From NCBI RefSeq assembly GCF_002087085.1, contig NZ_MWQY01000011.1, positions 62,001 to 126,000 of the forward strand: a stretch of 64,000 nucleotides of DNA. Reading direction: 5' to 3'. The DNA comes from Marispirochaeta aestuarii. Its GTDB lineage: Bacteria > Spirochaetota > Spirochaetia > JC444 > Marispirochaetaceae. Positions 38,604-63,309 of the stretch are shown here, piece by piece; position 1 is the first letter of the stretch, and each line of letters starts with the position of its first letter. The translations under genes were made by a program, and so were the position numbers. The notes beneath the pieces were generated by a model. The model did no database searches. It worked only from the letters and a program-made list of their open reading frames with translations, and was not told the DNA's origin.

Positions 38604-39359
38604 CTATTTGAATGCCGCGCTCAGTTCCCGCCGGCTGTACTCGAGTACATCCATCAGGGTCCTGGTACCGTCTTTTCCGGGAAAGTTGATCAGGGTGGCG
38701 ATTTTTGCCTCGGGCATGATCTCGAGCAGGGGGGCACCCACGTCGGTGTGCCAGTTGTCAATTATCACCATTGCGCCGCTTTCGGAGAGCTCTTTCAGCT
38801 GTTTTGCCTCCAGGGGAGCGGGTCCGTATGTCCCTGCGACGCTAAGGCCGAGGTTTTTTGCAAGTCCTGCAAGGAACTGATGGACAATGACGGGGGTCCT
38901 GCTGTAGGGAGCGAGTTCAGCCCGCCAGTCGTCGAAGAACTCTTTAATCGCCGTAAGGTTCGCCTCCGCTGTCTCTTCGGTGCCCGCGGCCTTAGCGATG
39001 ATCCGTACGGATTCACTTATAACCGGCCAGGTGTTTACCGTGGTAATCTGTACCAGCCGGGCATCCGCGGAGGCTGCTTCCTTGAGGCGTTCCATCATGA
39101 CTTCGTAACCGGCGTAGATAATCATATCGGCCCCGGCTATGTCCCTGATATCTCCCGGGGTCATTTCGTACTCCGGAGGGTGCTGCAGTTCGTAGGGGGC
39201 GAGGATTCGGATATCCTCAAGGCCTGCGACCTCTGCGAAGGAGGCGGTCCAGGAGGTCGTGGCAATGACCTCAGGGGAGGATTGTGCCTCCTGAACCCCT
39301 TCGGCATAAAGGGCGAGGGACAGGACGAGACAGAACAACAGAAATAACAGTCTTTTCAT
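38604..39359 (-). CDS. ZnuA-like metal ABC transporter substrate-binding protein
   Basis: Periplasmic binding protein of 251 residues, short for the cluster A-I family because it lacks the His-rich loop. It has a signal peptide (LFLLFCLVLSLALYAEG), the first ligand region LQHPPEYEMTPGDI, the second His in VIVHQFLAGLAKNLG and a C-terminal INFPGKDGTRTLMD. Metal ligands differ from E. coli ZnuA in context, so zinc, manganese or another divalent metal is possible. It overlaps the permease gene by 4 nt as the last gene of the operon. Confidence 0.85.
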   Translation of the reverse strand: MKRLLFLLFCLVLSLALYAEGVQEAQSSPEVIATTSWTASFAEVAGLEDIRILAPYELQHPPEYEMTPGDIRDIAGADMIIYAGYEVMMERLKEAASADARLVQITTVNTWPVISESVRIIAKAAGTEETAEANLTAIKEFFDDWRAELAPYSRTPVIVHQFLAGLAKNLGLSVAGTYGPAPLEAKQLKELSESGAMVIIDNWHTDVGAPLLEIMPEAKIATLINFPGKDGTRTLMDVLEYSRRELSAAFK

Positions 39360-40165
39360 AAAGAACTCCTGAAATGTTTAATAAGTATCATAATTCCGAA
39401 TACCAGTGCCGAGGTCAGGGTAACCCCTGCACTGACGGGAATATCGAACCAGAGGGATAGAATAAAGCCGGCAAGGGCGGAGAAGAGTCCCACCAGGGAT
39501 GAGACAAGAAACATTGCACCGGTACTGCCCGCCACCAGAAGAGATGAGACCGCCGGCAGCAGAACCAGGGAGTCCAGCAGAAGGGCCCCTACAAGGCGCA
39601 TGGATATGGCGATGGTGATTCCGGTACCGATCAGAATGATCCGGCGATAGGTCTCCGCGGGGATACCGGAGGTGGCGGCCACGTCGTAATTGAACAGGAC
39701 CGCCGTCAGTCGGCGCCGGAGGATAAGAATAAAGAGAATAATCGCGGCGCCGACTCCGCTGTTTATCGCCAGCTCGGTACCTCTGACGGCGTAGATGTTT
39801 CCCCAGAGAATGCTCAGGGCATCCTTGGCGGGAACTCCGGCCTTGTAGATGACAATAACAGCCAGGGCTATACTGACCACCATCAAAAAAGTTGTGGCGT
39901 AACCGGTGGGGATGTCCCCGCGGCGGGTAACGGCGATGAGTATGAAAATAAGCAGAAGATTGACTACCAGACTGCCCAGAAGCGGAGATATCTGAAGTCC
40001 CATGGCCAGGGCGCTTCCCAGAAGGGCCCCGTGCATCAGCATGAAGCGCAGGGTTATGAGGTTCAGCCTGATTACAAAAACCCCAATCAGTGGAAAGGCG
40101 ATTCCCGCAGTCAGGAGGGCCAGGAATCCCCGCTGGATCGGCGGCAGAGCGAGGTATTCCAGCAT
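39356..40165 (-). CDS. ABC-3 family metal permease (ZnuB-like)
   Basis: Integral membrane protein of 269 residues with eight or so hydrophobic segments. Family features include the N-terminal IQRGFLALLTAGIAFPLIGV, ALLGSALAMGL, and the C-terminal LLDSLVLLPAVSSLLVAGS. It forms the channel of the metal importer with the adjacent ATPase and binding protein, and overlaps both neighbours by 1-4 nt. Confidence 0.92.
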   Translation of the reverse strand: MLEYLALPPIQRGFLALLTAGIAFPLIGVFVIRLNLITLRFMLMHGALLGSALAMGLQISPLLGSLVVNLLLIFILIAVTRRGDIPTGYATTFLMVVSIALAVIVIYKAGVPAKDALSILWGNIYAVRGTELAINSGVGAAIILFILILRRRLTAVLFNYDVAATSGIPAETYRRIILIGTGITIAISMRLVGALLLDSLVLLPAVSSLLVAGSTGAMFLVSSLVGLFSALAGFILSLWFDIPVSAGVTLTSALVFGIMILIKHFRSSL

Positions 40166-40815
40166 CAGCCAACCTCCCGCACACGGGTGGTATCCAGCTC
40201 CTGCTCGAGACGCAGTCGACGCCAGCCTTCCTCGGGGATTCCCTTGAGGTCGTGGGTCACCAGCAGCACCGCGGCTCCATGTCCTGCAGCCATCTCCAGA
40301 AGGAGGGGATAGAAACGGGACCGGATCTCCGGATCCAGCCCGGCGGTGGGTTCATCCAGGATGAGCATTTCCGGGGCCTGGGCAAGACAGCGTGCCAGGG
40401 AGACCCGCTGTTTCTCTCCCCCCGAGAGGGTGGCAAAGGAGCGCCCGGCCAGGGATGCGCATCCCAGAGCTTCCAGGAGGTCGTGGATCCTCCTGCGTCG
40501 TTCGGTCCTGCCCATTCTGCGGGCACTGAAACCGATATCAACCACCTCCTGCACCGATATGGGCAGGTCGCCGCTGAGGGACTCCTGGGGCAGATATGCC
40601 AGGCTTCCGGGACCCCGGAGTTTTCGAATCAGGCTGCCCTTCTCGGGAAGAATAAATCCCAGGGCTGTTTTTAACAGGGTTGTTTTTCCTATGCCGTTTT
40701 CTCCCTGCAGGATAAGGTGTTCCCCCGCGCTGATGTCGAAGGAGAGGTCTCGAAGAACAAGACGCTTACCCCTGCGGACATTGACAGCGCGGAAGGATAT
40801 AAGAGAATCCGTCAT
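40165..40815 (-). CDS. Metal ABC transporter ATP-binding protein (ZnuC-like)
   Basis: ATPase of 216 residues. Walker A GENGIGKTTLLKTALG, signature LSGGEKQRVSLARCLAQ, Walker B EMLILDEPTAGLDPE and H-loop VLLVTHDLKG. ATG 40815 overlaps the DUF1893 stop by 4 nt (ATGA); the in-frame upstream GTG at 40896 would extend into that gene and is rejected. Confidence 0.92.
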   Translation of the reverse strand: MTDSLISFRAVNVRRGKRLVLRDLSFDISAGEHLILQGENGIGKTTLLKTALGFILPEKGSLIRKLRGPGSLAYLPQESLSGDLPISVQEVVDIGFSARRMGRTERRRRIHDLLEALGCASLAGRSFATLSGGEKQRVSLARCLAQAPEMLILDEPTAGLDPEIRSRFYPLLLEMAAGHGAAVLLVTHDLKGIPEEGWRRLRLEQELDTTRVREVG

Positions 40816-41198
40816 TTCCGCCCGGCCCGGCGGCTCAGCTCGGTGTAGGCTTCCTCGGGATCGTCTACCGCGGCCAGAAGTTCCTCGGTTTTGCACTGGA
40901 TTCTGGGAACCAGGGTTTCCCAGGAGAATTCCGCGTTTCGGGAGCGCAGATACTCCGCTGCAGGCTCGCTCATGAGTCTGCCATGGATCCGGCGTATTCC
41001 CAGGCGGTATATAAGGAGGGCTGCGGCCTTTCCGATAATACTGTCTTTCAGGTAGAGATCGGCGGCTGTATACTCATTTTCTGAGAGAAAGTCCTCCAGG
41101 GCAAAAAGGGGATGAAGCCACTTTCCGTTGTTAATGAATATGGGATCATCCTTCAGGAAGACCTGAAGTGAAGGTGATATCTGGTGATTTGTGTCCAT
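40812..41198 (-). CDS. DUF1893 protein leading the metal importer operon
   Basis: Protein of 128 residues. LKDSIIGKAAALLIYRLGIRR, followed by GRLMSEPAAEYLRSRNAEFSW, matches the DUF1893 pattern (VGKAAALL, SEPA). The family's later CPME-type segment is replaced by IQCKTEEL. Function unknown; coupling to znuCBA by ATGA suggests a role in metal homeostasis. ATG 41198 has no Shine-Dalgarno sequence and lies 8 nt from a TATTAT box, so a leaderless start is likely; GTG 41219 is the alternative. Confidence 0.78.
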   Translation of the reverse strand: MDTNHQISPSLQVFLKDDPIFINNGKWLHPLFALEDFLSENEYTAADLYLKDSIIGKAAALLIYRLGIRRIHGRLMSEPAAEYLRSRNAEFSWETLVPRIQCKTEELLAAVDDPEEAYTELSRRAGRK

Positions 41199-41250: not shown

Positions 41251-41817
41251 TCAGTCCAGCTTCTTGGATATCAGCTGCAGGAACTCCAGGCGCGTGGCCT
41301 CGTCGTTGTGAAAGCTGCCCAGTACCGAGGAGGTGGTCATAACAGAGTTCTGCTTCTCAACCCCCCGCATCATCATGCAGAGGTGCTTCGCTTCCATAAC
41401 AACCCCCACACCCTCGGCGTTGGTGGAATCCATTATCTCCCGGGCAATCTGCCGAGTCAGGCGTTCCTGTATCTGCAGTCGCCGGGCGAAGACGTCGGCA
41501 ATGCGGGCAAGTTTGCTGACCCCCAGGACCTTGTCCCGGGCTATGTAACCTATATGGACCTTGCCGTAGAAGGGAAGCATATGATGTTCACAGAGACTGT
41601 AGACTTCAATGTCCCGCACGATAATCATATTGTTGGCCTCGGACTCGAATACCGCTCCATTGATAACCTCGTCAATATTGCGGCTGTAACCGGAACTCAG
41701 GTACTCCCAGGCTTTGGCGGCCCGTTCCGGGGTACGCTGAAGACCTTCCCGTTCGGGATCCTCGCCCAGTTCAATTAATAATTCACGAATAAGCCCGGCT
41801 ACACGTTCGCGGTTCAT
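41251..41817 (-). CDS. folE: GTP cyclohydrolase I, type IA
   Basis: Makes dihydroneopterin triphosphate from GTP. It has 188 residues with the signature [19 protein letters not shown] (Zn ligands Cys and His), QERLTRQIA, and [16 protein letters not shown] with the second Zn Cys. This is the zinc-dependent FolE form. ATG 41817 has AGGAGG upstream, 20 nt after the folK stop; the gene is the last of the phn-fol series. Confidence 0.96.
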
Positions 41818-41837
41818 GGTTTGAAGCCTCCTCTGTT

Positions 41838-42347
41838 TCAAAGGCCGGAATCGAGCAGATTACGCAGGATTTCGGTTATTGGAGAATAGTACAGCTCCAT
41901 GTCGGGATTGACCAGTCCCGCCAGGATACTTTTATCCCCGGGCAGGCGGATGTCCGGTTCCAGTTCCAGAAGGGGAATATAGACAAAGGCCCTTTCCCGT
42001 ATCTGCGGATCCGGCAGTACAAGCTCCGGGCCTGTAAGCAGAAGATCATCATAGAGAATCAGGTCCAGGTCCAGGGTACGGGAGGCGTAGGAATCCCCGG
42101 TTCGTATGCGGCCGCATTCTGCTTCGATGCGTCGTAATGTCTCTTTCAGCTTCAGGGGTTTCATTTCGGTCTGCCCGTGCCAGATCCCGTTAACGTATTC
42201 CGGCTGTCGCCTGTCGCCCAGGGGGGCTGTTCGATAGTGGGTGGAGATCCTGAGCAGTTTTACCCGGGCAGCAAGCAGCGTGAGCCCCTTCGTGAGACTG
42301 GTCTCGGCTTCGATGTTGGATCCTGTTGCAATGAAAAAGTCAGCCAT
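41838..42347 (-). CDS. folK: 2-amino-4-hydroxy-6-hydroxymethyldihydropteridine pyrophosphokinase
   Basis: HPPK of 169 residues, starting [15 protein letters not shown] (family MxxAxxxLGSNxG region). It has [15 protein letters not shown], the metal-binding [12 protein letters not shown] and [17 protein letters not shown]. It activates the pterin for joining with p-aminobenzoate. ATG 42347 lies within the end of folB (8-nt overlap). Confidence 0.93.
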
Positions 42348-61248: not shown

Positions 61249-63309
61249 ATGAAAAGGATAAGTCTGCGCCTCAGGCTCGTACTCGGTTTTCTGGTTATGA
61301 TTCTTCTGATCACTGCCGTTTCAGTTTTAAGTATTATCCGCTTCAACGATGTGGCTGCCCTCGGACGGGCTGCGGTACGGGAGAACAACAACCGTGCTTA
61401 TGCCCTTGCCCGGGAGATTGACCATCTGAAGTGGGTCAGCGATGTGAGTGATCTCTTTCTGCTGGACGACATCCTGGAGCTGAATGTCGAGACCGACTGG
61501 CACAGATGCAGCCTGGGCGAGTGGATCTACGGCGAGGCCATGGCGGAGGAGACGGCGGGGGATCCCGAACTCGGTCAGCTGATCAGCGCGATAAAACCTC
61601 CCCATGAGAGGATGCATAAAACGGCGATCAGGATCGACGAGATATACGTGGAATTTGATCAGTCTCTTTTGGTGACCCTGGAAAAGGCCTGGATAGATCA
61701 CCTTGAATGGCTCAAGGACCTGAATTATGCCGTCATGATGGGAACGGCATTTACTGGTGAAACCGATCCCCGGCGCTGTGATTTCGGCCGCTGGTACGGT
61801 AATTTCACCGCCGATGATCCTGACCTGAGCCAGCTGCTGGCCCTGTGGGAGGCACCGCATAAAGATCTGCACAATTCCGCGAAGGAGATTGTATCTGCCC
61901 TCGCCAGGGGAGACCTGGCAGGTGCAAGGCGTCTTTACAGCCGGAATGTACTGCCGGCCCTGGATCTGCTTCGGACAATCAAGAATCGGACAATGGCCCA
62001 TCTTCAGGAGCTGGACGCCGGGCAGAAGGCCGCCGTGGAAATTTTCAATACCGAAACGATTCCCGCCCTCCAGGAAACCCAGAGCGCCCTGGCCGGTCTG
62101 GTTGGATATTTTGAAGAGCGTGCGGAGACCGCCCGGCGAGACATGGAGGAACAGATCCGGCAGATCATTATTACCGTTATCGCCATAGCCCTGGCGGCCC
62201 TGCTTGCGGGGCTCTTTCTGGCGGTATTTACCACCTCCGCAATCCTGAAGCAGCTGGGACAGGATCCCATGATCCTGGAACGGATAGCCGAACGGGTAGC
62301 CCGGGGTGACCTGACAGTAGATCTTGCCGGTATCGACAGCTCCGAGGGGGTCTACCGTTCCGTGCTGGAAATGGTCGCGGCCCTGAAGGAAAAATCCGAT
62401 TCCCTGGAGATTCTTTCGGGGGGAGATTTTTCCCGGGAAATTAAAAAAGCCGGCAGTGCCGATATCCTGGGGGCATCGATGATTCGCATGCAGGAGTCCC
62501 TCTCCTCGGTTCTTCGCCAGGTCCAGCAGGCCATCGAGCAGGTCGCCCAGGGAGCGGACCAGGTCAGCACGGCCAGTCAGGACCTCTCCCAGGGGGCTAC
62601 CGAACAGGCGAGTTCCCTGGAGGAGATATCCTCCTCGATAACCGAGATAAACGGTCAGGCCTCCCAGAATGCAGCCAGTGCAGGAGAAGCCAACAGGCTT
62701 GCAAACGAGGCCAGGGACAACGCGGTCTCCGGCAACCGTTACATGGAAGAACTTGTCCGGGCGATGCAGCAGATCAATCTCGGGTCCGGTGAAATCAAGA
62801 AGGTGGTCAAAGTGATTGACGATATCGCCTTCCAGATTAATCTTCTTGCATTGAATGCAAATGTGGAGGCCGCCCGGGCCGGAAAATACGGCCGGGGTTT
62901 TGCCGTGGTGGCCAATGAGGTTCGCAACCTGGCAAATCGCAGTGCCGAGGCGGTCAGGGAGACGGAGACCATCGTTGACGATTCCCTGGAGAGGATCTCT
63001 GCAGGGGACAGGCTGGTAAACGATACGGCGGGACAGCTCATACAGATAGTGGAAGGAGTCGAGAAGGTTGCCTCGTTTCTCGAAGAGATCTCCTCTGCCA
63101 GCAGAGAACAGGCCCAGGGGCTCAAACAGATAAGCAGCGGTGTTGAGCAGATTGATGAAGTAACCCAGGCAAATACCGCCTCCGCAGAGCAGAGCGCTTC
63201 CGCCGCCGAAGAACTGGCGGGGCAGGCTGAGGAGCTGCGAAAACTGATCTCCCGGTTCAAACTTTCCGCAGGGAATATGCTCCTGGAAGGTCCCGGGGAA
63301 GAGGGCTGA
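61249..63309 (+). CDS. Methyl-accepting chemotaxis protein with two extracytoplasmic CZB modules
   Basis: Chemoreceptor of 686 residues. TM1 about 10-30, sensor 31-305, TM2 about 306-327, HAMP about 328-385, MCP domain to the end with the tip [20 protein letters not shown]. The sensor holds two copies of the CZB pattern: H59..W62, C87-S-L-G-E-W, H119..H123; and H151..W154, C177-D-F-G-R-W, H204..H208. CZB domains bind Zn and are usually cytoplasmic. ATG 61249 has GGGAAAG upstream. A zinc- or redox-responsive receptor is inferred. Confidence 0.92.

Follow-up and report, generated by a model that had tools for sequence, protein, structure and literature searches.

Tandem CZB zinc modules in the predicted periplasmic sensor of a Marispirochaeta aestuarii chemoreceptor and its relatives

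A chemoreceptor (MCP) gene of Marispirochaeta aestuarii, located in a stretch of 64,000 nucleotides from contig NZ_MWQY01000011.1 (the window, meaning the whole stretch analysed), encodes two CZB modules between its transmembrane segments. The product was interpreted as a periplasmic chemoreceptor for zinc availability or redox state, the sensor of which would consist of two stacked CZB four-helix bundles; the probability of this reading was put at roughly 0.6. Single periplasmic CZBs are already known, so that what appears to be new, judging from sequence, is the existence of receptors with two or three of them stacked, which are little described. The features of the gene were as follows:

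61249..63309, + strand: MCP of 686 aa with two CZB modules, predicted to be periplasmic; the ORF was confirmed.
61279..61341, + strand: TM1 (residues ~11-31), after a K/R-rich cytoplasmic N-terminus; hydropathy and charge profile, within AF2 helix 6-71.
61423..61635, + strand: CZB module 1 (residues 59-129), predicted membrane-proximal; Pfam PF13682, 44.8 bits, and ligand conservation.
61699..61893, + strand: CZB module 2 (residues 151-215), predicted membrane-distal; PF13682, 47.7 bits, with phmmer and structural matches to 3t9o.
61915..62163, + strand: return helix (residues 223-305); part of AF2 helix 223-335, pLDDT mostly >95 before TM2.
62164..62229, + strand: TM2 (residues ~306-327); hydropathy and AF2.
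62695..63165, + strand: MCP cytoplasmic signalling domain (residues 483-639); Pfam PF00015, 164.4 bits.

Both modules exceeded the curated PF13682 cut-off of 29.4 bits, and the whole protein scored 83.4 bits over two stretches; the tandem CZB identity proposed in the original prediction was therefore upheld, as was its placement of the pair between TM1 and TM2 of an MCP. The motifs named there were recovered in order in both modules and at exactly the residue numbers given, i.e., H59-x2-W62, C87-x-x-G-x-W92 and H119-x3-H123 in the first, and H151-x2-W154, C177-x-x-G-x-W182 and H204-x3-H208 in the second. Chance was rejected as a source of this pattern, since the ordered motif occurred 0 times in 200,000 shuffles of segment 33-305. 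The predicted zinc ligands are three histidines and one cysteine per module (H59, C87, H119 and H123; H151, C177, H204 and H208), and the LBD has two cysteines in all, exactly the predicted ligands C87 and C177. The motif cysteine is followed by Ser88 in module 1 and by Asp178 in module 2, and not by Arg. A HAMP-like linker follows TM2, where Pfam gives no HAMP match. Among 28 MCPsignal matches in the genome this gene had the top score. One other CZB protein exceeded the cut-off, a membrane MCP on contig C4 with a C-terminal cytoplasmic CZB (G000:C4:48357-50534, L042); the genome would thus hold CZB sensors for either side of the membrane, in separate proteins.

The fold was predicted with AF2 from a 43-row alignment, as a monomer with zinc left out (mean pLDDT 89.7). 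Long helices were placed at 6-71, 106-132, 139-164 and 201-219, followed by a single helix at 223-335, from which two stacked helical bundles were predicted, with one long return helix running into TM2. In this model module 2 would be distal and module 1 proximal, the return helix closing both bundles as their fourth helix. Residues 137-221 matched the CZB of DgcZ (PDB 3T9O/4H54) by phmmer (E=2.9e-5), and 3t9o was ranked first by Foldseek, at an E-value of only 0.0074. The alignment of model residues 136-254 with 3t9o (Z 13.5, rmsd 2.5, 116 residues, 22% identity) covers the distal module, the proximal module not being aligned on its own. Homology to the DgcZ domain can be recognised in the sequence, and the predicted fold and ligand positions agree with it; the DgcZ domain differs in being cytoplasmic and single, and in controlling a GGDEF enzyme. 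The distal-module model was about equally close to 4HB/HBM sensors (MCP2201, Z 14.8; McpS, Z 12.7). The McpS alignment spans one bundle only, and the AF2 helix pattern is compatible with a stacked pair. In receptors and sensors of the HBM type (McpS; cf. TorS, PilJ) the periplasmic region between TM1 and TM2 consists of two helical modules, one stacked on the other, an arrangement that the model suggests for the window receptor as well; they differ in binding organic acids or partner proteins and are not CZB by sequence. HBM receptors are not known to have zinc ligands. The HBM family was not among the Pfam matches of the window protein, an absence that is no proof.

A search of genome contigs with the single LBD sequence found no relatives, and tblastn with the LBD against plasmids gave no match; relatives were found with a four-row LBD alignment, with which 84,980 species genomes were scanned. 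This yielded 113 relatives, of which 80 were kept and parsed with a CZB HMM built for this analysis. In the relatives, which come from many phyla, the TM1-TM2 segment carries one, two or three CZBs. All full-length proteins scanned were MCPs (75/75, the window's included), and Pfam HAMP was present in 34/75 family members. Neighbouring modules lie 92 residues apart (89-95 in regular arrays), and TM2 follows the last CZB after ~135 residues with one module, 168 with two and 205 with three; each extra module therefore adds 92 residues and ~35 of return helix. The model of a triple-module receptor, made from six sequences (pLDDT 86.7), repeated the helix set three times, and its return helix was longer (323-427). 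The idea that the tandem modules arose only once found no support: module 1, single modules and the first modules of triples were intermixed and second modules fell into several groups, in a tree that had 78 columns only and was poorly resolved.

Further arrangements were observed among the relatives. In two receptors (L100, 7725-10181; L118, 4839-7298) a pair of periplasmic CZB modules encloses an sCache_2 domain; the second CZB scores weakly (45-47 bits by the HMM of this analysis, with one Pfam stretch in L100). Receptors of Desulfospira joergensenii (L103, 4980-7010) and Desulfosarcina cetonica (L116, 4986-6986) have one periplasmic CZB and one after the MCP domain, and thus CZBs on both membrane sides. 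A Desulfobulbaceae receptor (L123, 4971-7130) combines a single periplasmic CZB with hemerythrin at the C-terminus, a domain suggestive of an oxygen or redox context. A related spirochaete genus has a CheW-like protein with an inserted CZB (L041, G027:C1:1635500-1639000; G047:C4:6330-6524), assigned by sequence appearance and by reference to the published CheW-CZB class.

The ligand set was complete in 27/27 single-module receptors and in all 18 modules of the triples (six proteins). Both sites were intact in 41/43 tandem proteins, and each of the other two had lost one site: the H-C-H-H ligands became H-S-Y-Y in module 2 of L066 and R-S-H-Y in module 1 of L102. Loss of three ligands of one site while the other stays perfect would be expected if metal sites decay as units. 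The cysteine was kept in 46/47 tandem proteins, for each module, and the LBD held just two cysteines in 37/43. Nearly all periplasmic modules collected here keep H-x2-W, the high conservation of which is singled out for diguanylate cyclases in PMC8262984. The residue after the motif cysteine was mostly Gly or Ala in the relatives; the same source gives position 2 of the motif as Ala or variable in periplasmic CZBs.

These patterns bear on an unlikely alternative, in which zinc is structural, holding together two four-helix bundles, and an organic ligand or partner protein is sensed at the bundle interface, as in 4HB/HBM receptors. The closeness of the model to those sensor domains, equal to its closeness to CZB, agrees with such a role, and the sCache_2 domain within the CZB pair of L100 and L118 implies that the stack can accommodate a sensor of small molecules. 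However, conservation peaked at the zinc ligands and neighbouring residues and not at an interface pocket, and the tolerated loss of whole sites in L066 and L102 would be odd for a purely structural metal.

A survey of CZB position in spirochaete receptors had been proposed with the original prediction. Tandem pairs did occur in Spirochaetota, in 3/384 sampled genomes (the window's own counted), but they are no spirochaete peculiarity, being found in many phyla. Five of the 60 nearest-relative genomes had them (G001, G003, G028, G045 and G048); G001, of the same genus, carries an orthologue (L054) that shares the gene order of the window (GNAT - receptor - DUF819), besides a second tandem receptor, the paralogue L055. 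In Thermodesulfobacteriota at least 15/247 genomes were positive, the search-centre genome counted, and five triples were among the matches listed. Among sampled Pseudomonadota, 42/299 genomes matched at E 1e-35 when 6 candidates were scored per genome, a number on which the count depends. All 42 belonged to the class of Magnetococcales bacterium ER1bin7 (G766) except Rhabdochromatium (G424, a search centre), which leaves 1/251 genomes outside that class. Within it, 37/48 genomes matched at E 1e-60, nearly always in single copy, with up to 40 candidates scored per genome, on which this count depends as well. The family is thus concentrated in groups of redox or oxygen and sulfide gradients, a correlation that is suggestive only, because one class is one evolutionary unit; its concentration there may reflect one inherited gain and not adaptation.

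Given this concentration in bacteria living along oxygen and sulfide gradients, the window receptor probably reads zinc availability or redox state outside the cytoplasm. By analogy with DgcZ, TlpD and McpA, each bundle is predicted to bind one Zn2+ through three His and one Cys. The occupancy of both sites would be set by soluble Zn2+ outside the cytoplasm, itself dependent on oxidants, oxygen or sulfide, and might also be altered by direct oxidation of the zinc-bound cysteine. A change in occupancy would alter packing or order around the cysteine loop, and the return helix common to both bundles would relay this through TM2 and the HAMP-like linker to CheA. That zinc release is the signal is inferred from those same cytoplasmic proteins; the soluble chemoreceptors TlpD and McpA are alike in that a CZB controls an MCP signalling domain, and differ in having it C-terminal and cytoplasmic, without a transmembrane sensor. 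Candidate reasons for having two sites are an extended range, cooperativity or a taller sensor. A broader proposal, advanced only tentatively, is that stackable periplasmic CZBs (one, two or three, each module adding one zinc site and a fixed helix increment) form a distinct receptor class, using extracellular zinc availability as a proxy for oxygen/sulfide redox gradients; it would help to position magnetotactic cocci, sulfate reducers, purple sulfur bacteria and some spirochaetes, with site number tuning range or cooperativity.

The original prediction had also named direct sensing of HOCl or other strong oxidants, which would oxidise the zinc-bound cysteine. This possibility is weakly motivated and was considered improbable for the window receptor. 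HOCl is chiefly a cue of host inflammation, and the closest relative with a name, Candidatus Marispirochaeta, belongs to the free-living spirochaetes. Among all relatives with a name, the overwhelming majority are environmental and most come from anaerobic lineages, settings in which HOCl is no obvious cue. The CZB zinc-cysteine centre does react with HOCl (PMC8262984), and the near-invariance of the cysteine in each module fits such chemistry; however, responses to hydroperoxides and O2 are also reported, and are explained by Zn2+ depletion (PMC13370339). A receptor for Cu, Ni, Co or Fe instead of zinc is less probable still. Selectivity for zinc is not strict in 3His-1Cys sites, and reported responses of CZB proteins to Cu, Ni and Fe are listed in PMC8262984; against this, the ligands are conserved as a full set, and descriptions of the solved relative call it a zinc domain.

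The periplasmic siting of residues 31-305, as first suggested, agreed with the distribution of charge. Across 43 tandem receptors the mean K+R / D+E was 3.2/0.4 before TM1 and 1.1/2.0 after it, and 0.8/2.0 before TM2 and 2.1/0.5 after it; this bias fits an N-in, loop-out, C-in topology and therefore an extracytoplasmic TM1-TM2 loop. The positive-inside rule, together with the cytoplasmic position of the MCP domain, predicts a periplasmic CZB pair. That residues 33-305 are instead an ordinary cytoplasmic sensor, like most known CZB domains (PMC8262984), is hardly credible, since it requires the failure or inversion of both TM segments and is contradicted by the charge bias and the MCP domain.

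A physiological link to a zinc importer had been suggested as well. The ZnuABC-type operon (ZnuA/ABC-3/ABC_tran; 38604-40896, - strand) is genuine, but 20 kb lie between it and the receptor gene, which is on the other strand, and 25 of the 37 Pfam families from 36 ORFs flanking the nine closest relatives included no zinc gene, so the link was not sustained; nor was any redox gene found linked to the receptor. The ZnuA-type protein is short (251 aa), its best match covering the first 78 profile positions only, and a GTP cyclohydrolase I gene (41251-41841) adjoins the operon.

The view that CZBs are mostly cytoplasmic is borne out by a survey of 10,140 CZB sequences, in which 384 (3.9%) were periplasmic and N-terminal in receptors, leaving ~96% cytoplasmic (PMC8262984, Perkins et al. 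2021, mBio). Like the modules of the window receptor, the periplasmic CZBs described there, which the description implies to be single, lie N-terminally in a membrane chemoreceptor and have 3His/1Cys ligands and a non-Arg residue after the cysteine. The window receptor differs in having two modules, predicted to be stacked; the main text of that paper makes no mention of stacks of two or three and does not state whether tandems are among its 384 sequences. No description of a tandem or double CZB was found in the open-access literature searched, nor were metal-binding data found for any periplasmic CZB. Those CZB proteins with experimental results in the literature consulted are cytosolic and sense labile zinc there. 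A 2026 preprint argues that soluble Zn2+ serves CZB receptors as a messenger of redox state and that attraction to O2 is mediated by them, and it favours Zn2+ availability as the sensed variable (PMC13370339).

CZB domains have been studied as cytoplasmic sensors of zinc and oxidants, and opinions differ on whether what they detect is the oxidant itself or the availability of zinc. Two or three like sites stacked in the periplasm would separate the extracellular signal from cytoplasmic zinc homeostasis, and so make this debate directly testable. The natural series of one, two and three modules allows the effect of an added sensor site to be asked. The presence of the family in most genomes of the Magnetococcales-holding class makes it a candidate redox or oxygen taxis receptor in those bacteria.
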